Below are positions 7,297 through 42,293 of a stretch of 42,756 nt of DNA, one piece after another (the stretch's first letter is position 1; the number at the start of each line of letters is the position of its first letter). The DNA lies in the NCBI RefSeq assembly GCF_000337095.1, contig NZ_AOIV01000023.1, forward strand, positions 101,505-144,260, in the 5' to 3' direction. The stretch comes from Halogeometricum pallidum JCM 14848. Its GTDB lineage: Archaea; Halobacteriota; Halobacteria; Halobacteriales; Haloferacaceae. The position numbers were made by a program, and so were the translations under genes. Under the pieces are notes generated by a model, which saw only the letters and a program-made list of their open reading frames with translations, was not told the DNA's origin and searched no databases.

Positions 7297-7321
7297 CCGG
7301 GTGACGGCTTACTCCGCGCCA

Positions 7322-9781
7322 ATGAGACCGGAGGACGTGCCGGGCCTGCCGGAGGGGGTGCCCGAGCGGTTGCAGTCGGAGGGCATCGAGGAACTGTACC
7401 CCCCGCAGGCCGAGGCGGTGGAGGCGGGCGTGACGGAGGGCGAGAGCGTCCTCGCCTCCGTCCCGACGGCGTCCGGGAAGACGTTCATCGCCGAGTTGGC
7501 GATGCTGTCGAGCGTACAGCGAGGCGGAAAGGCGCTGTACATCGTCCCGCTTCGCGCCCTCGCCTCCGAGAAGAAGGCCGAGTTCGAACGCTGGGAGGAG
7601 TTCGGTATCGACGTTGGCGTCTCGACGGGCAACTACGAGTCCAGCGGCGAGTGGCTCTCCTCCCGGGACATCATCGTCGCCACCTCCGAGAAGGTGGACT
7701 CGCTCATCCGCAACAACGCGGGGTGGGTGAGCGACCTCTCCTGCGTCGTCGCCGACGAGGTGCACCTCGTGAACGACGGCCACCGCGGCCCCACGTTGGA
7801 GGTCACGCTGGGCAAACTGCGGAAGATAAACGCCGGGCTACAGGTCGTCGCCCTCTCGGCGACGGTGGGCAACGCCGAGGAGGTGGCCGAGTGGCTCGAC
7901 GCGACGCTCGTACAGTCGGAGTGGCGACCCATCGACCTGAAGATGGGCGTCCACTACGGCAACGCCATCTCGTTCGACGACGGGAGCCAGCGGGAGGTTC
8001 CGGTCGGGAAGGGCGGCAGACAGACGTCGGCGCTCGTCGCCGACACCCTCGACGAGGACGGGTCCTCGCTCGTGTTCGTCAACTCCCGGCGGAACGCCGA
8101 GGCGGCCGCGAAGCGTCTGAAGGACGTGACGGCGGAGTACCTCACGGGCGAGGAGCGAAGCGAGTTGGCCGAGTTGGCACAGGAGATACGCGACGTGTCG
8201 GACGCCGAGACGAGCGATACGCTCGCGAACTGCGTGGCGAAGGGCGCCGCGTTCCACCACGCCGGCCTCGCCTCCGAGCACCGGCGGTTGGTCGAGGAGG
8301 CGTTCCGCGCCCGGTCGGTGAAAACCGTCTCCGCGACGCCGACGCTCGCGGCGGGCGTCAACACGCCGAGTCGGCGCGTCATCGTCCGCGACTGGCAGCG
8401 CTACGACGGCGAGTTCGGCGGCATGAAACCGCTTGACGTGCTCGAAGTCCACCAGATGATGGGGCGGGCGGGCCGCCCCGGCCTCGACCCGTACGGCGAG
8501 GCCGTCCTCCTGGCGAAAGACTCCGAGACGCGCGACCAACTGTTCGAGCGCTACGTCTGGGCCGACGCCGAACCCGTCCGCTCGAAACTCGCCGCCGAAC
8601 CCGCCCTGCGGACGCACCTCTTAGCCACCGTCGCCTCCGGGTTCGCCCACACGCGCGAAGGACTGTTGGAGTTTCTCGACCGGACGCTGTACGCGACGCA
8701 GACGGACGAGCCCGGACGGTTAGAACGGGTCACCGACACCGTCCTCCGATATCTCGAAGCGAACGGCTTCGTGGAGATGGACGGGGACGACATCTCCGCG
8801 ACGGCCATCGGGCACACCGTCTCGCGCCTCTACCTCGACCCGATGAGCGCCGCGGAGATAATCGACGGCCTGCGCTGGGGCGCCGACCACCGCGAGGAGA
8901 AACTCCGCGCACTGGAAGGCGTCTCAGACGCCGACGCTCGGCGCGCGGCGAGCGACGCCGAGGAGGAGGCGGACGAGTCCGGCGGGTTCCAACGGGCCAG
9001 CGAGATGGTCTCGACGGGAGACGAGGAGGGAGCAGAGAGCGCGGAACCCATCGAGACGGACCGCACCTATCCGACGGCGCTCGGCCTGTTCCACCTCGTC
9101 TCGCGGACGCCCGACATGTACCAACTCTACTTGAAGTCGGGGGACCGCGAGACCTACACCGAGGAGTGCTACGAGCGCGAGCCCGAACTGCTCGGGAGCG
9201 TCCCCTCCGAGTACGAGGACGTGCGCTTCGAGGAGTGGCTGTCCGCCCTCAAAACCGCCAGACTGCTCGAAGACTGGACGCGCGAGGTGGACGAGGACCG
9301 AATCACCGAACGCTACGGCGTCGGCCCCGGCGACATCCGAGGCAAAGTCGAGACGGCGCAGTGGTTGCTCGGCGCGGCCGAACGACTCGCCGGGGAGTTG
9401 GATCTCTCCTCGGCCGTCGCCGTCCGCGAGGCGAAAAAGCGCGTCGAGTACGGCGTCCGCGACGAACTGCTCGATTTAGCCGGGGTGCGCGGCGTCGGCC
9501 GCAAGCGCGCCCGCCGCCTGTTCGAGGCCGGCATCGAGACCCGGAACGACCTCAGACAGGCCGACAAGTCCGTGATTCTCGCCGCCCTGCGAGGGCGGCG
9601 GAAAACCGCCGAGAACGTCCTCGAAGCCGCCGGGCGGCGCGACCCGTCGATGGACGACGTGGACGAGAGCGAGGCCGACGTGCCCGAGGCGACGTTCGAG
9701 CGAGCGAGCGAGCGAACCGAAGGCGGCGGCGACGACGCGGACGACCCGCAGGAGCAGGCCAGTCTGGGTGATTTCGGGTGA
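7322..9781 (+). CDS. hel308: Hel308 (Ski2-like) DNA helicase
   Basis: An ATP-dependent 3'-5' helicase that unwinds forks and lagging-strand structures at stalled replication sites. The 819-residue protein has PTASGKT (48-54), DEVH (145-148), helicase C motifs with [10 protein letters not shown], a winged-helix and ratchet domain, and a C-terminal HhH region ([22 protein letters not shown]). An acidic insertion sits in the 540-590 region. The last residues, QASLGDFG, resemble a PCNA-interacting QxxLxxF motif; that binding is my inference. ATG 7322 is supported by the TATA-like box and by the conserved [10 protein letters not shown] start. Its stop overlaps the cgi121 start by 4 nt, implying translational coupling. 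Confidence 0.96.
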
Positions 9782-10266
9782 GGTTCGTCGAGGGCGTCGC
9801 CGACGTGGAGAGCGTCGACGCGTTCGTCGCCGCCGTCGCCGAGGTGGCCGAGGAGACGGGCGCGACGGTGCAGGTGTTCGACGCGCGGTACGTCGCGGGC
9901 GAGGAACACCTCCGCTGCGCCGTCGAACTAGCCGACCGCGCCATCGACCGGGGAGAGAACGTCGCCCGCGACAGGGCCGTGGAGATACTGCTGTACGCCG
10001 CGGGCCGCCGCCAGATAGACGACGCGCTGACGATGGGCGTCTCCGAGGGCGAGGTGCCCGCCGTCGCCCTCGTCGACGGCGGCGACGAGGCCCGCGCGGC
10101 GGCGGACCTGCGCGAGATGCTGGTCGACGAACGGACGCTCGGACGGTTCGACGGCGAACGGATGCGGGAGTTTTTCGACGTGACCGACGCCGAACTCGCC
10201 GTCGTCGACGGCGACATCGAATCGCTCGTCTGCGAACGCGTCGCGCTACTGAACGTCGAGAAATAA
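9778..10266 (+). CDS. cgi121: KEOPS complex subunit Cgi121
   Basis: Cgi121 is the accessory KEOPS subunit that binds tRNA and stimulates Bud32/Kae1 in N6-threonylcarbamoyladenosine (t6A37) synthesis. The 162-residue product has the typical core [14 protein letters not shown] and [18 protein letters not shown], and ends near the family's usual length. It starts with GTG at 9778 inside the hel308 stop (GTGA overlap), so expression is coupled to the helicase. The other KEOPS genes are not in this window. The hel308-cgi121 pairing is a recurrent archaeal arrangement, as far as I know; a functional tie between the two is unproven. Confidence 0.92.
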
Positions 10267-10276
10267 CTCGAAGCGA

Positions 10277-10297
10277 ACCCCTCCGTTTCGTGTGGAG
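10277..10297 (-). promoter_or_regulatory. ORB-like motif 1 outside oriC
   Basis: The plus strand reads ACCCCTCCGTTTCGTGTGGA plus G. It matches the origin motif ACCCCTTCGTTTCG-x-x-TGGA at all but a few positions, including the G-string and the GTTTCG core. It has the same orientation as the motif 46 bp further on. It is probably an Orc1/Cdc6 binding site, inferred from similarity to the sites next to orc1 in this window. Confidence 0.55.
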
Positions 10298-10322
10298 ATT
10301 CGAACCATCTCTCCGTCGACGA

Positions 10323-10343
10323 ACCCCTTCGTTTCGACTGGAA
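10323..10343 (-). promoter_or_regulatory. ORB-like motif 2 outside oriC
   Basis: The plus strand reads ACCCCTTCGTTTCGACTGGA plus A. Its 14-nt G-string and core half is identical to the site at 32415 inside the origin, and it ends with the same TGGAA. It lies 46 bp from motif 1 in tandem. This is the best-conserved ORB outside the origin region of this window. Confidence 0.65.
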
Positions 10344-10649
10344 AACAGGAGACTGCGCGGCGACGAGGCGTCGAGATGAAATCCGGAGCGGCGATCCCGC
10401 TCGGACGGCTGGGTTACTCAGTAGCGCCGAGAGCCACTAAAGGGATTCGAATCGACGGGGCGCCGTCGAGAGGGAGAGAGGACGGGGGAACAGTGCACCG
10501 TCGTCGACGTACGATACGTGGGTCCAGTTGGCGTCCGCCGACGGGGTCGGGTTCCGAGGCCGTGCGGACGGTCGTACCGAACTCGTCCGTAACGACGTTT
10601 TTCACCGCGGTCTCGTCCTCGAGTCGAAGGAGCGCCTAGTTTCCTCGTC

Positions 10650-11885
10650 TCACGACCCGCCTTCGTATTCTAATCGCACGACGCGCCCGTCAGCGTAGAT
10701 GACGAACGCCTCCTGAGCGCCGTCGTCGTCGACGTCCGCCAGCGTCGCGTGGGTGAATATCGGAACGTCGCGGCCGTACGTCGACAACACGTCGCCGTCG
10801 GCAGGGTCTAACACGGTCACGCTGCCGTCGTTTCCGGCCGCGAGGAGTTCGGGCGAGCCGTCGCCGTCGAGGTCACCGAGATTCGGCGGGGGCATCATCT
10901 GGACCTGGTCGACGACGATTTCGATCGTCCACTCGGTCCGCCCGGTTGCGGCGTCGAGTGCACGAACCGTCCCGTCTTTCGCGGTCACGTACGCCTCGGC
11001 GTCACCGTCTCCGTCGCCGTCGCCGAACGCGTGAACGGCGGCGAACTCGCCGACGCTCGTTCGCCACTCGACCGCGCCGGTACCGCCGTCGACGGCGACC
11101 ACGTCGCCTCCGACGGTCGTGAACACCGCTTCGAGGGCCGGGTCGTCGTCGGCCTGCCCGTGCGTCCCCCACGTCAGCGACCCGTTCTCCGTCACCGTCT
11201 CGTCCCATTCGACGGAGCCGTCTCCGGCGAAGAGAACCGCCTCGCCCGTCCGTCTCCCGACGAGCAGTTCGGGCGAGCCGTCGGCATCGAAGTCGGCCAC
11301 CGTCGGTTGCGCCCAGACGTAGCCGTCGAGGTTCGCGGTCCACAGTTCGGTGCCGTTCGACGCGAAGACGAACGCGGTTCCGGTCACGTCGACCGCGACG
11401 ATTTCGCGCCCGGGCGAGGGGGCGAGGTCGGCGACGAGGGGCTTCGTGTAGCCGTAGTTCGAGAGCCCGAGTCGCGTCCGAACGTCGCCGGACGCCGCGT
11501 CGAAGACCGCGACCTCCCGTTCGGTCGTCGCCGCGAGCACTTCGAGTCGCCCGTCGCCGTCGAGGTCCGCGACCGTCGGGTCGGCGACGGAGTGAATCGT
11601 GCAGTTCGCCGCGGGAAGCGTGTCGTTCCAGACGCTCGACCCGTCGGTCGCGTTCATCGCGACGAGCGCGCAGTTTCCGGTTCGGTCCGCGCCGCTGATT
11701 GGCGCGTACACTCGGTCGTCGCCGACCGCAACGGCGTGGTGATTCGAGGAGATGTCTCGACCGGTGTCGCTCGTCCACGTCGCGTCCAGCCCGTCGCTCC
11801 CGAGTCCGCCGGTGAATCCGAGGACGACGACGGTTCCGAGAACCAGGACGATACCGAGCATCGCGAGGAACGTCGTCGCTCTCAT
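10650..11885 (-). CDS. Exported or membrane-anchored FG-GAP/PQQ-like beta-propeller protein
   Basis: A 411-residue protein with an N-terminal hydrophobic helix (TTFLAMLGIVLVLGTVVVLG) acting as signal or anchor, so the rest is probably extracellular. The body holds about seven propeller blades with recurring calcium-binding DxDGDG-type loops (DLDGDGRLEVL, DFDADGSPELL, DGDGDGDAEAY, DLDGDGSPELL, DVDDDGAQEAF), alternating with PQQ-like strands ending in V-AVDGGTGAVEWRT-like segments. Such propellers bind ligands or partners; no catalytic residues are recognisable. It starts 64 bp after the stop of the membrane protein gene at 11950 on the same strand, so the two probably form an operon. Function unknown. 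Confidence 0.85.
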   Translation of the reverse strand: MRATTFLAMLGIVLVLGTVVVLGFTGGLGSDGLDATWTSDTGRDISSNHHAVAVGDDRVYAPISGADRTGNCALVAMNATDGSSVWNDTLPAANCTIHSVADPTVADLDGDGRLEVLAATTEREVAVFDAASGDVRTRLGLSNYGYTKPLVADLAPSPGREIVAVDVTGTAFVFASNGTELWTANLDGYVWAQPTVADFDADGSPELLVGRRTGEAVLFAGDGSVEWDETVTENGSLTWGTHGQADDDPALEAVFTTVGGDVVAVDGGTGAVEWRTSVGEFAAVHAFGDGDGDGDAEAYVTAKDGTVRALDAATGRTEWTIEIVVDQVQMMPPPNLGDLDGDGSPELLAAGNDGSVTVLDPADGDVLSTYGRDVPIFTHATLADVDDDGAQEAFVIYADGRVVRLEYEGGS

Positions 11886-27517: not shown

Positions 27518-29182
27518 CTACGAGAACTTGCGGACCGTCATGTCGAGCGTATCCAAATCGAGGATGGGCGCGTAGCCTGCGTCGGGGTCGATGTTGACGG
27601 ACTTCTGGAAGTCGGTTTGCGCCTGCCAGCACCCGGAGTTGACGGCGAGGACGTTGTGGTACTTCCCCCAGCCGAGTTTGTGGACGTGGCCCGTGTGGAA
27701 CACGTCGGGAACCTCCTCCATCACGAGGTAGTCCTTCTCCTCGGGCGCGAGGCGGGTGTGGCCGCCGTACTGCGGGGCGACGTGGCGCTTTTTCAGCAGT
27801 TGATACATCGCCTTGTGCGGTTCGTCGTAACTGGCCGACTCGGCGGGGAGTTCGGCGATGACCTCGTCCAAGGAGACGCCGTGGTACATCAGCACCTTCA
27901 CGCCCTCTAACGTCACCGTCGAGGGGTTGCTCGTGATGTGCGCGTCGTGGACGGACATGATGTCGCGGAGGTGCTCGTCGAACCCGGGTTGGGGTTCGGC
28001 GAGGCGGACGGCGTCGTGGTTGCCCGGTATCATCACGATCTCCATGTCGCCGGGCACTTCCTTCAGGTGCTCTGCGAACTGCTCGTACTGGTCGTAGATG
28101 TCGACGATGTCCAACTCCTCGTCCTGATTCGGGTAGACGCCGACGCCCTCCACCATGTCGCCCGCGATGAGGAGATACTCCACGTGTTCGGCCTCCTCGG
28201 TGTGAAGCCACGAGGTGAACCGCTGCCACGCCCCGGTCATGAACTCCTGGCTCCCGACGTGCACGTCGGAGATGAGCGCCGCCTGCACGTGCCTGTCGGC
28301 GGTGTTCGGCTTGTACGTCCGCGGCACGTCCGGGGAGTGCATCGAGTCGACGAACATGATACCCGCGTCGTCCGCGAGTGTTCCCTCGACGGCGATGCAC
28401 TCGTCCAAGAGGAGTTCGTCCACCGCCGAGGCGAACTCGCGGTCTTTCATCACGAGGCAGGGGAACGTCCCCGTCGTGTCCTCCAGTTCGACCAGCCAGT
28501 GACCGCTGGCCGTCGAGCGGATGTCGTTGACGAGGCCGACCATCGCCGCGTCGCTGCCGCCGGACATCGACTGGATGGCCTCGGCGGGCCGGTGGTTCAC
28601 CCGCCCGCGGAGTTGACGCGAGAGCTTCTCGTAGCGGTCCTTGAACACCTTCACGAAGTCGCCGTACTCGCCCGTCCCGGTGCTCTGCCCGGTCATGTCG
28701 TTGGCGACGTCGAACGACCGGAGCGACGGGTCGGGGTTCCGTCCGGCCCACACTCCCTCCGTTTCGGGTGCAGTTGTCTCCGGTTCCGTCGGACTCTCGT
28801 CGTTCGGTTTTCCACTCGAATTAGAGGGGTGGGGGGTAGGGGAGCCGGAGTCGTCCGCGGGCCTCTCGGCCGTCGCGCCGCCGTCCGTCGTCGTCGGTTC
28901 GGCCGCCGGTGGTTCAGCAGTCGAAGGTTCGGCCGTCGTGGATTCGACGGTCGAGGTGAGGTCGGAGACGGGCGCGTCGGTCGCGTTCGGACCGCCGTCG
29001 AGCACCGCACGGACGTCGGCGGCGGTGACGCGGAAGGCGTCGGGGCCGGCGCGTTCGACGGCGCGCGCGAGCGTCGTGCCGGGGTCGGCGGCGCCCGCGA
29101 TGAGCGTCACCGCCTCCCGTTCGGCGTTGTAGCCGTGGCGCGCGAGTTCGCGGACGATGCGGGCCGGCGTCTCCAGAGGCAC
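27518..29182 (-). CDS. polD1: DNA polymerase D small subunit (DP1)
   Basis: The small subunit of the archaeal replicative polymerase D; its Mre11-like phosphoesterase gives 3'-5' proofreading. The 554-residue protein has an N-terminal helical domain, a Ser/Thr/Glu/Pro-rich linker at about 100-150, an OB fold around 200-280 (TASGHWLVELEDTTGTFPCLV) and a phosphoesterase domain with all motifs: ALISDVHVGS, LLIAGDMVEG, MIPGNHDAV, MYHGVSLDE and HTGHVHKLG. All metal ligands are present, so the nuclease should be active. The divergent neighbour is signal peptidase; orc1 and the origin lie just beyond, a typical haloarchaeal origin-flank order. The large subunit gene is not in the window. Confidence 0.94.
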   Translation of the reverse strand: MPLETPARIVRELARHGYNAEREAVTLIAGAADPGTTLARAVERAGPDAFRVTAADVRAVLDGGPNATDAPVSDLTSTVESTTAEPSTAEPPAAEPTTTDGGATAERPADDSGSPTPHPSNSSGKPNDESPTEPETTAPETEGVWAGRNPDPSLRSFDVANDMTGQSTGTGEYGDFVKVFKDRYEKLSRQLRGRVNHRPAEAIQSMSGGSDAAMVGLVNDIRSTASGHWLVELEDTTGTFPCLVMKDREFASAVDELLLDECIAVEGTLADDAGIMFVDSMHSPDVPRTYKPNTADRHVQAALISDVHVGSQEFMTGAWQRFTSWLHTEEAEHVEYLLIAGDMVEGVGVYPNQDEELDIVDIYDQYEQFAEHLKEVPGDMEIVMIPGNHDAVRLAEPQPGFDEHLRDIMSVHDAHITSNPSTVTLEGVKVLMYHGVSLDEVIAELPAESASYDEPHKAMYQLLKKRHVAPQYGGHTRLAPEEKDYLVMEEVPDVFHTGHVHKLGWGKYHNVLAVNSGCWQAQTDFQKSVNIDPDAGYAPILDLDTLDMTVRKFS

Positions 29183-30174: not shown

Positions 30175-30195
30175 TTCGAGTCGAACCGAAGGGGT
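30175..30195 (+). promoter_or_regulatory. ORB-like motif between sec11 and orc1
   Basis: TTCGAGTCGAACCGAAGGGG plus T: the G-string CGAAGGGGT is exact and the TCGAA core is preserved, with about four differences from the best origin site. It is in the 81-bp gap between the convergent sec11 and orc1 3' ends. Confidence 0.45.
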
Positions 30196-32022: not shown

Positions 32023-32043
32023 ACCCCCTCATTTCGACTGGAA
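32023..32043 (-). promoter_or_regulatory. ORB at the orc1 start
   Basis: The plus strand reads ACCCCCTCATTTCGACTGGA plus A. The site lies 10 bp upstream of the orc1 ATG (32013) and would overlap the orc1 promoter. Orc1 bound here could repress its own transcription. Confidence 0.7.
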
Positions 32044-32414: not shown

Positions 32415-32435
32415 ACCCCTTCGTTTCGGGTGGAA
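32415..32435 (-). promoter_or_regulatory. ORB flanking the unwinding element (left)
   Basis: The plus strand reads ACCCCTTCGTTTCGGGTGGA plus A, with a C-rich run before it (CCTCCCCC). Its reverse complement is identical over 21 nt to the ORB at 32613-32633, so the two form an inverted pair around the AT-rich stretch. Confidence 0.85.
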
Positions 32436-32483
32436 CGGCGTGAAGGTGGGGGTGGGGGTTCGCGGGCAGTCTGTAAAGCCGGT

Positions 32484-32573
32484 GGTTTTACTATGGTCTA
32501 ATGATTACCAAACCCGTAGTAGAGAAGAAAAGAATAATCACACTGCCTTCTTATCTGTATTAAACTAGGTACG
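32484..32573. other. AT-rich duplex-unwinding element candidate
   Basis: From GGTTTTACTATGG to TTAAACTAGGTA the sequence is about two-thirds A+T, in contrast to the GC-rich surroundings. It sits between the two inverted ORBs, which is the expected position for origin melting. Confidence 0.75.
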
Positions 32574-32612
32574 CGGGCGTCACCGGGACGAGGGGTGGGG
32601 GGTTTCGGCGGG

Positions 32613-32633
32613 TTCCACCCGAAACGAAGGGGT
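32613..32633 (+). promoter_or_regulatory. ORB flanking the unwinding element (right)
   Basis: TTCCACCCGAAACGAAGGGG plus T, followed by GGGGGGT, is an exact 21-nt inverted copy of the left ORB. Both G-strings point away from the AT-rich element. Confidence 0.85.
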
Positions 32634-32787
32634 GGGGGGTGAGGAGGAGACGAGAGCCGAACGGCAGACTAGTCCTCGGCCAGTCGGTCCCGTCGCCTTT
32701 CTGTTCGGTCCCGCCTCGGTTTCGGATTCTGCGGCGAGAGCACTGACTGTGGACCTCTCCCCGATGTCGGACCGTCCTACTCGGTCG

Positions 32788-33279: not shown

Positions 33280-33344
33280 AGCGCAGAAATGTGGTACCTG
33301 CATACGCCCCTCCACGACGGATTCGGGAGGTGCGGGAGGACAGG

Positions 33345-33986
33345 ATGGGACTGCTTACAGGATTACGAGACAGCATCTCACGGGTCGTCGACCGGATGTT
33401 CTCGGACGCAGAGCCGAGACGGATCGGCATCTACGGACCCCCGAACGCCGGGAAGACGACTCTCGCAAACCGTATCGCCCGCGATTGGACCGGTGACGCC
33501 ATCGGCCCCGAGAGCCACGTCCCTCACGAGACGCGCCGCGCGCGCAGAAAGGAGAACGTGGAGATAGAACGCAACGGGAGGAAAGTCACCATCGACATCG
33601 TCGACACGCCGGGCGTGACGACCAAGGTCGACTACAAGGAGTTCCTCGAACACGACATGGAGAAAGACGACGCCGTCCGGCGGTCCCGAGAGGCCACCGA
33701 GGGCGTCGCCGAGGCCATGCACTGGCTCCGCGAGGACGTCGACGGCGTCGTCTACGTGCTCGACAGCACCGAGGACCCGTTCACGCAGGTGAACACGATG
33801 CTCATCGGCATCATCGAGAGCCAGGACCTCCCCGTCCTCATCTTCGCGAACAAGACCGACTTGGAGGACGCGAACGTACAGCGGATATCGAACGCGTTTC
33901 CGCAACACGAGACGGTACCGCTCTCCGCGCTGGAAGGTAACAACATGGACGAAGTGTACGACAAGATAGCGGAGTACTTCGGGTGA
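33345..33986 (+). CDS. arvA: ArvA/OapA: Era-like small GTPase, origin-adjacent
   Basis: A 213-residue Ras-like/Era-like GTPase. G1 is GPPNAGKTT, G3 is DTPGV, G4 is NKTD and G5 is SAL (near VPLSALEGNN). The N-terminus MGLLTGLRDSISRVVDRMFSD is amphipathic and may contact membrane. Homologues were first named OapA (origin-associated protein) and later ArvA, a GTPase required for extracellular vesicle formation in haloarchaea. I chose ATG 33345 because GGAGG precedes it; GTG 33291 is the in-frame alternative. It heads an operon with arvB and arvC, reading away from the origin. Confidence 0.93.
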   Translation: MGLLTGLRDSISRVVDRMFSDAEPRRIGIYGPPNAGKTTLANRIARDWTGDAIGPESHVPHETRRARRKENVEIERNGRKVTIDIVDTPGVTTKVDYKEFLEHDMEKDDAVRRSREATEGVAEAMHWLREDVDGVVYVLDSTEDPFTQVNTMLIGIIESQDLPVLIFANKTDLEDANVQRISNAFPQHETVPLSALEGNNMDEVYDKIAEYFG

Positions 33987-42131: not shown

Positions 42132-42224
42132 GGTTGCGCCCCGCCTGCGGCGAGACAACGCAGATACCGACGCCGACAGCAAACGTCTGCCGGCCGACCG
42201 ACACGATCCGCCGAACTGACCCCG

Positions 42225-42245
42225 ACCCCTTCGTTTCGAGTGGAG
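42225..42245 (-). promoter_or_regulatory. ORB-like motif in the 42132-42293 gap
   Basis: The plus strand reads ACCCCTTCGTTTCGAGTGGA plus G, a close match to the oriC ORBs (exact in the 14-nt G-string and core half). It lies upstream of the FAD/Rieske gene and just after the 3' end of the permease gene, about 10 kb from the origin. Confidence 0.6.
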
Positions 42246-42293
42246 ATACCAACAGGTCAGACGGACCGACGCCGGCCGCGCAGGATGGGAGGG

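Follow-up and report, generated by a model that had tools for sequence, protein, structure and literature searches.

Among the closest described systems is oriC2D of Haloarcula hispanica, a cluster of 11 ORBs in 722 bp downstream of cdc6E which has no origin activity and restrains oriC2. The cluster lowers the replication of oriC2 plasmids, and two ORBs give an intermediate effect (PMC3936714). At oriC1 of the same organism, removing either one of the ORBs weakens replication, and mutating the extended G-string of either stops it (PMC3936714). In Bacillus subtilis the deletion of all six oriC-proximal DnaA-box clusters advances initiation (Okumura 2012, as given in PMC5295017). Little is understood of how archaea prevent a second firing of oriC1, and the sole case of titration that we found, oriC2D, concerns another origin.

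Here we describe a tandem pair of ORB-like sites behind cgi121 in the window, by which we mean the whole 42,756-nucleotide stretch of Halogeometricum pallidum JCM 14848 DNA that was analysed. With moderate confidence we propose that the pair forms part of a conserved group of satellite ORBs close to the origin, and that these would limit initiation by sequestering Orc1. A satellite is an ORB core lacking the extended G-string, present alone or in a close pair and mostly outside promoters; such sites are found directly past stop codons, in convergent gaps, or in the linker-coding part of the DP1 gene.

The tandem pair and the oriC1 region

Genes were called with a simple codon-usage finder built for this analysis, and ORB-like sites were scored with a matrix trained on 44 oriC ORBs only (training-set median 33 bits, minimum 26.0). 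The features of the window are:

7301..9781, + strand: hel308 DNA helicase gene (profile matches)
9778..10266, + strand: cgi121 (KEOPS subunit; PF08617, NF011465), the constant neighbour of the slot
10267..10649, no strand: convergent intergenic gap of 383 bp with the pair (gene model and composition); AT-rich core absent
10275..10298, + strand: putative satellite ORB 1, GAACCCCTCCGTTTCGTGTGGAGA, directly 3' of the cgi121 stop; 25.3 bits on the oriC-only matrix
10321..10344, + strand: putative satellite ORB 2, GAACCCCTTCGTTTCGACTGGAAA, 46 bp downstream of ORB 1; 32.6 bits, exact core
10650..11885, - strand: beta-propeller (PQQ-like) protein gene (profile match, gene context), a neighbour that varies among species
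27518..29182, - strand: gene of the PolD small subunit (DP1; NF003116), with an embedded pair in its linker region
28754..28772, + strand: ORB-like site in DP1, antisense member; 17.8 bits
28811..28829, - strand: ORB-like site in DP1, sense member, 57 bp from the other; 14.5 bits
30241..32013, - strand: orc1 initiator gene (Cdc6_C; NF001625)
32024..32042, + strand: ORB-like site in the orc1 upstream region; 21.6 bits
32413..32436, + strand: left ORB of oriC1 with extended C-string; 34.3 bits, consensus match at 32416
32437..32611, no strand: AT-rich core of oriC1 between the inverted ORBs; up to 67% AT per 60 bp
32612..32635, - strand: right ORB of oriC1 with extended C-string; 34.3 bits, consensus match at 32614
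42223..42246, + strand: further putative satellite ORB, CGACCCCTTCGTTTCGAGTGGAGA; 34.6 bits, exact core at 42226

The earlier note had claimed two ORB-like motifs of the same orientation, 46 bp apart and 22 kb from the origin, and both are present on the + strand at 10275-10298 and 10321-10344, with oriC about 22 kb and orc1 about 20 kb away. Its ranking of the second motif with the sites inside oriC is also borne out, ORB 2 reaching 32.6 bits against 34.3 for each oriC ORB of the window. ORB 1 is slightly under the lowest oriC ORB of the training set (25.3 against 26.0 bits). The maximum over 1.6 million reversed-sequence positions was 6.5 bits on the same matrix, and a consensus scan of the window gave six matches where 0.00 were expected (100 shuffles, none). 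Both cores resemble the oriC1 ORB core at these scores and, as judged from their sequence, are real copies of it; neither site has the extended G-string that stands beside the core in a full oriC1-type ORB.

The gap is convergent, the minus-strand beta-propeller gene facing the cgi121 stop at 10266, and with this 3'-3' arrangement the pair is not at a promoter. Its GC content is 62.7%, and AT does not exceed 50% in any 60 bp, compared with up to 67% in oriC1. A tblastn analysis of the window revealed no second orc1-like gene besides orc1 itself, ~20 kb from the pair. The absence of a nearby initiator gene and of a strong AT-rich core, also claimed from the letters alone, is thus upheld within the window.

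The region around oriC1 has several further features. The ORB-like site at 32024..32042 is 11 bp upstream of the modelled orc1 start and could be autoregulatory. As modelled, the orc1 product has 590 amino acids, compared with ~415 in the family model, and its N-terminal region includes a low-complexity, acidic stretch ~140 residues long; possibly the start codon is wrongly placed. A gene for OapB (origin-associated protein, PF09846; 33992-34369) adjoins oriC1, with a small GTPase gene beside it at 33291-33986. Mismatch scans also brought up a variant motif, GAACCCCTTCGNTTCNNNTCGAAC, at 30176-30194, in which TCGAA replaces TGGA; it recurs near oriC1 at ~-2.3, +3 and +4.6 kb, including in congeners, and may be an element different from the ORB. 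The contig end (42742-42756) reads CTGTCTCTTATACAC, which we take to be a Nextera transposase adapter, i.e. an assembly artefact.

Rarity, clustering and conservation of the sites

The earlier note had suggested a genome-wide scan and held that many random sites, with no conservation of the pair between species, would speak against a function. This is not what was found: the motif is rare, its copies lie mostly around the origin in each of the haloarchaeal families examined, and the pair is kept. Pattern searches, on which all genome-wide counts are based, gave five exact CCCCTTCGTTTCNNNTGGA cores in the 4.38 Mb genome, namely two in oriC1, ORB 2, the site at window position 42226 and one at C24:10758. 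Contig C24 very probably follows C23, because a single contig of congener G003 carries the matching sites, at +20 kb and +166 kb; with the C24 copy so placed by synteny, all five exact cores lie near oriC1. The congeners have a site at a distance (7.6-9.7 kb) similar to that of the window satellite at 42223..42246. A CCCCTTCGTTTCCACTGTA site was also noted ~150-167 kb from oriC1 in four congeners (G000 C24:145231, G003 C1:287013, G004 C1:286892 and G002 C5:104685).

Motif matches were present in all 59 genomes sampled, from eight families. For 21 Haloferacaceae genomes we counted, among the matches listed, the sites that differ from the motif at no more than one position. Per 10 kb there are 1.25 such sites at a distance of 1-5 kb from oriC1, 0.33 at 5-20 kb, 0.18 at 20-50 kb, 0.03 at 50-100 kb and 0.0003 past 200 kb, and the matches listed for 18 genomes from other families give a comparable gradient. 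In seven genomes, six represented by 120 kb around oriC1 and the window's own by the stretches analysed, every one of the 44 sites with no more than one mismatch lies between genes, in sequence that is 85-88% coding.

A comparison of the gap in relatives, likewise suggested beforehand, shows the tandem pair after cgi121 in all five genomes of the genus (G000-G004), with a spacing of 46-47 bp; in genus g8, two genomes carry a pair spaced 47 bp in the same slot. Most Haloferacaceae have a single ORB on the cgi121 strand, 4-130 bp past the stop, even where Cgi121 identity is only 45-50%. In a motif-anchored alignment the core carries ~1.6 bits per position, compared with 0.07 in the left flank and 0.29 in the outer right flank. 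Three Halorubrum genomes (L059, L063, L069) have a second, inverted ORB-like site ~64 bp past the first. The slot is lineage-specific and the orientation of its ORB appears to be irrelevant, since in family f2 six of nine genomes have an ORB there, in inverted orientation, and no ORB was found in the slot in the checked genomes of families f3, f4, f7 and f8; other satellites do occur in other families.

The presence of the site follows how far cgi121 lies from the origin. An ORB of at least 15 bits within 150 bp of the cgi121 stop was found in 28 of the 38 genomes in which cgi121 is less than 100 kb from oriC1 and in two of the ten in which it is 142-625 kb away, these distances being approximate. 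Fisher's test gives p=0.003 and a genus-level Mann-Whitney test p=0.006; given the relatedness of the genomes these values overstate independence, the genus tally being the only adjustment for kinship. The site is thus missing from 10 of the 38 near genomes. Weak 11-bit remnants follow cgi121 in two far genomes and one near genome. Both far exceptions belong to genus g24, where the ORB is kept at 177-204 kb and neither orc1 nor oriC was found within 30 kb.

The gene for an 89-amino-acid DUF7553 protein replicates this pattern: of 30 near genomes, 22 have an ORB 1-141 bp past its stop, as does one of six far ones (p=0.016), and all 23 of these ORBs are in convergent gaps. Genus g3, in which cgi121 is ~560-590 kb from oriC1 (two genomes with known distance), has the cgi121-tail ORB in none of three genomes and the DUF7553-tail ORB in two of the three, 12 and 54 kb from oriC1.

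The DP1 gene was compared in genome stretches of 26 genomes, 23 of which have at least one DP1 site of at least 15 bits. The inverted pair is found in families f1, f3, f4 and f8, usually with a spacing of exactly 57 bp (54 in f8, 69 in G026), and families f2 and f6 mostly have one copy. In the window the minus-strand member has an extended C-string, as an oriC ORB does. Codons of the DP1 sites often end in A or T (GC3 0.47, compared with 0.86 for genes) and the encoded peptide varies; the constraint therefore appears to act on the DNA, by way of rare codons. The reading frame at the site is identical in all genomes, so the peptide may also contribute. It is unusual in itself for a putative DNA-binding element to be maintained through rare codons within the gene of a replicative polymerase.

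Among the matches listed, 68 of 86 Haloferacaceae satellites within 100 kb face oriC1. A functional orientation bias was rejected, as only 16 of the 38 satellites listed at 1-100 kb in other families do so and the cgi121-slot ORB of family f2 is inverted; on these grounds we take the Haloferacaceae bias to reflect the common descent of a few sites.

Possible roles of the satellites

Of the functions that had been offered for the pair, titration of Orc1 is the best supported, on distribution and architecture, and remains putative as a mechanism. Evidence for it is that the sites match oriC ORBs in sequence, are rare, cluster at the origin, are deeply conserved in position, are lost at distance and lack origin architecture; from these points we infer Orc1 binding, competition with oriC1 and an effect on initiation. 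Orc1 would bind the satellite cores and not build an origin there, the licensing string being absent. Because the satellites lie within ~50 kb of oriC1 they would be duplicated soon after firing, and the number of competing Orc1 sites would double at once. As the new satellites compete with the new oriC1 copies, free Orc1 at oriC1 would drop and re-initiation would be damped. Several points stand against this. A few sites per genome would make a weak sink if Orc1 is neither scarce nor tightly bound, and haloarchaea are polyploid, which complicates timing by gene dosage. The site is also missing from ten near genomes, kept at a distance in g24 and absent from the slot in the f3, f4, f7 and f8 genomes checked.

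The main rival to titration is that bound Orc1 plays a structural part, from which a very similar distribution would be expected: Orc1 at the satellites would mark, loop or anchor the origin domain, in a layout like that of bacterial parS around oriC, with only indirect control of replication. Clustering at the origin, the preference for gene tails, loss at distance and the indifference to orientation seen in f2 all suit it. The satellite gradient is much tighter than that of parS, no partner protein was identified and no archaeal precedent was found in the literature searched, and we think this role unlikely. A broader possibility, for which our confidence is low but somewhat greater, is that Orc1 occupies a conserved, orientation-indifferent array of satellites round oriC1, the DP1 pair included, and so would define an origin domain with a parS-like layout or couple initiation to fork passage through the first tens of kb. 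If so, haloarchaeal Orc1 would do more than start replication. Control of transcription, with Orc1 either regulating the neighbouring genes or halting transcription that heads towards the origin, is quite unlikely in our view. The roadblock variant may be entertained, the ORB-like site close to the modelled orc1 start would suit autoregulation, and a paralogue, Orc1-2, regulates transcription in archaea in response to DNA damage (PMC9738581). Local regulation, as raised in the earlier note, fits poorly with the 3'-3' gap here, with the convergent position of all 23 DUF7553-tail ORBs, and with a cgi121 slot that elsewhere usually holds its ORB well upstream of the next gene (mostly 150-800 bp away); the site also tracks distance to oriC1 rather than the gene.

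The idea of a secondary or dormant origin, which may be extended to an MCM-loading site during fork restart, has on its side the intact ORB core, the inverted arrangement of the DP1-embedded pair, like that in oriC, and the dormant origins of Haloferax mediterranei (PMC4595724). The pair itself is tandem, with neither inverted ORBs around an AT-rich core nor an adjacent orc1/cdc6 gene, and at the extended G-string positions satellites average 1.65 C out of five compared with 4.9 in oriC ORBs. As H. hispanica oriC1 is weakened by loss of either ORB and stopped by mutation of either G-string, and oriC2D alone has no replicating activity (PMC3936714), the idea fares badly. Lacking inverted ORBs, an AT-rich core, an adjacent initiator gene and the extended G-string, the pair is probably not a replication origin, and this rival as a whole is very unlikely; solitary ORBs near an origin are not in themselves evidence for a second one. 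That the sites are neutral remnants of former origin copies or of local duplications would agree with the smooth fall in density away from oriC1. We disfavour it as the most improbable of these explanations: the core is kept behind the same genes in many genera and the flanks are not, the DP1 sites use rare codons, and the satellites lack the C-string that borders oriC ORBs. The link to the Hel308 helicase suggested by the position of the pair was rejected, as the cgi121-tail ORB tracks distance to oriC1 (28/38 near, 2/10 far). It is usually gone where hel308-cgi121 is far from the origin, and other satellites stay near oriC1.

Comparison with known systems

Solitary origin-proximal ORBs were not described in the literature searched, from which subscription journals were mostly absent, and priority is not certain. 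The proposed titration by satellites is directly testable, since they form a small, named and conserved set round the most conserved archaeal origin, each member of which can be deleted and most of which are in non-coding gaps.

With the ORBs of haloarchaeal oriC1 the satellites share the core ACCCCTTCGTTTCNNNTGGA; they differ in lacking the extended G-string, an inverted partner at ~200 bp and an AT-rich core, and most end in TGGARA where oriC1 ORBs end in TGGAAC. Like datA and DARS of E. coli they are non-coding loci, putatively bound by the initiator, whose position with respect to the origin is conserved. Those loci, as described in PMC4585315, are few, unique and act by nucleotide switching on DnaA, whereas the satellites give no sign of ATP hydrolysis or exchange. 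The B. subtilis clusters are likewise initiator boxes near but outside the origin, but they bind bacterial DnaA and are clusters rather than single boxes; a cluster restored at various locations still helped (PMC5295017), whereas for the satellites nearness to the origin seems to matter.

As with oriC2D, the satellites are haloarchaeal ORBs which lie outside an origin, show no origin architecture of their own and are proposed to titrate the cognate Cdc6. That system is one dense cluster beside oriC2-cdc6E, whereas the pair described here consists of two boxes and the satellites elsewhere are mostly single sites over tens of kb, forming singles or close pairs of oriC1-type ORBs up to ~50 kb round oriC1. 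By this analogy the satellites appear to resemble oriC2D and the B. subtilis clusters but, their sites being dispersed, we do not file them as members of either.
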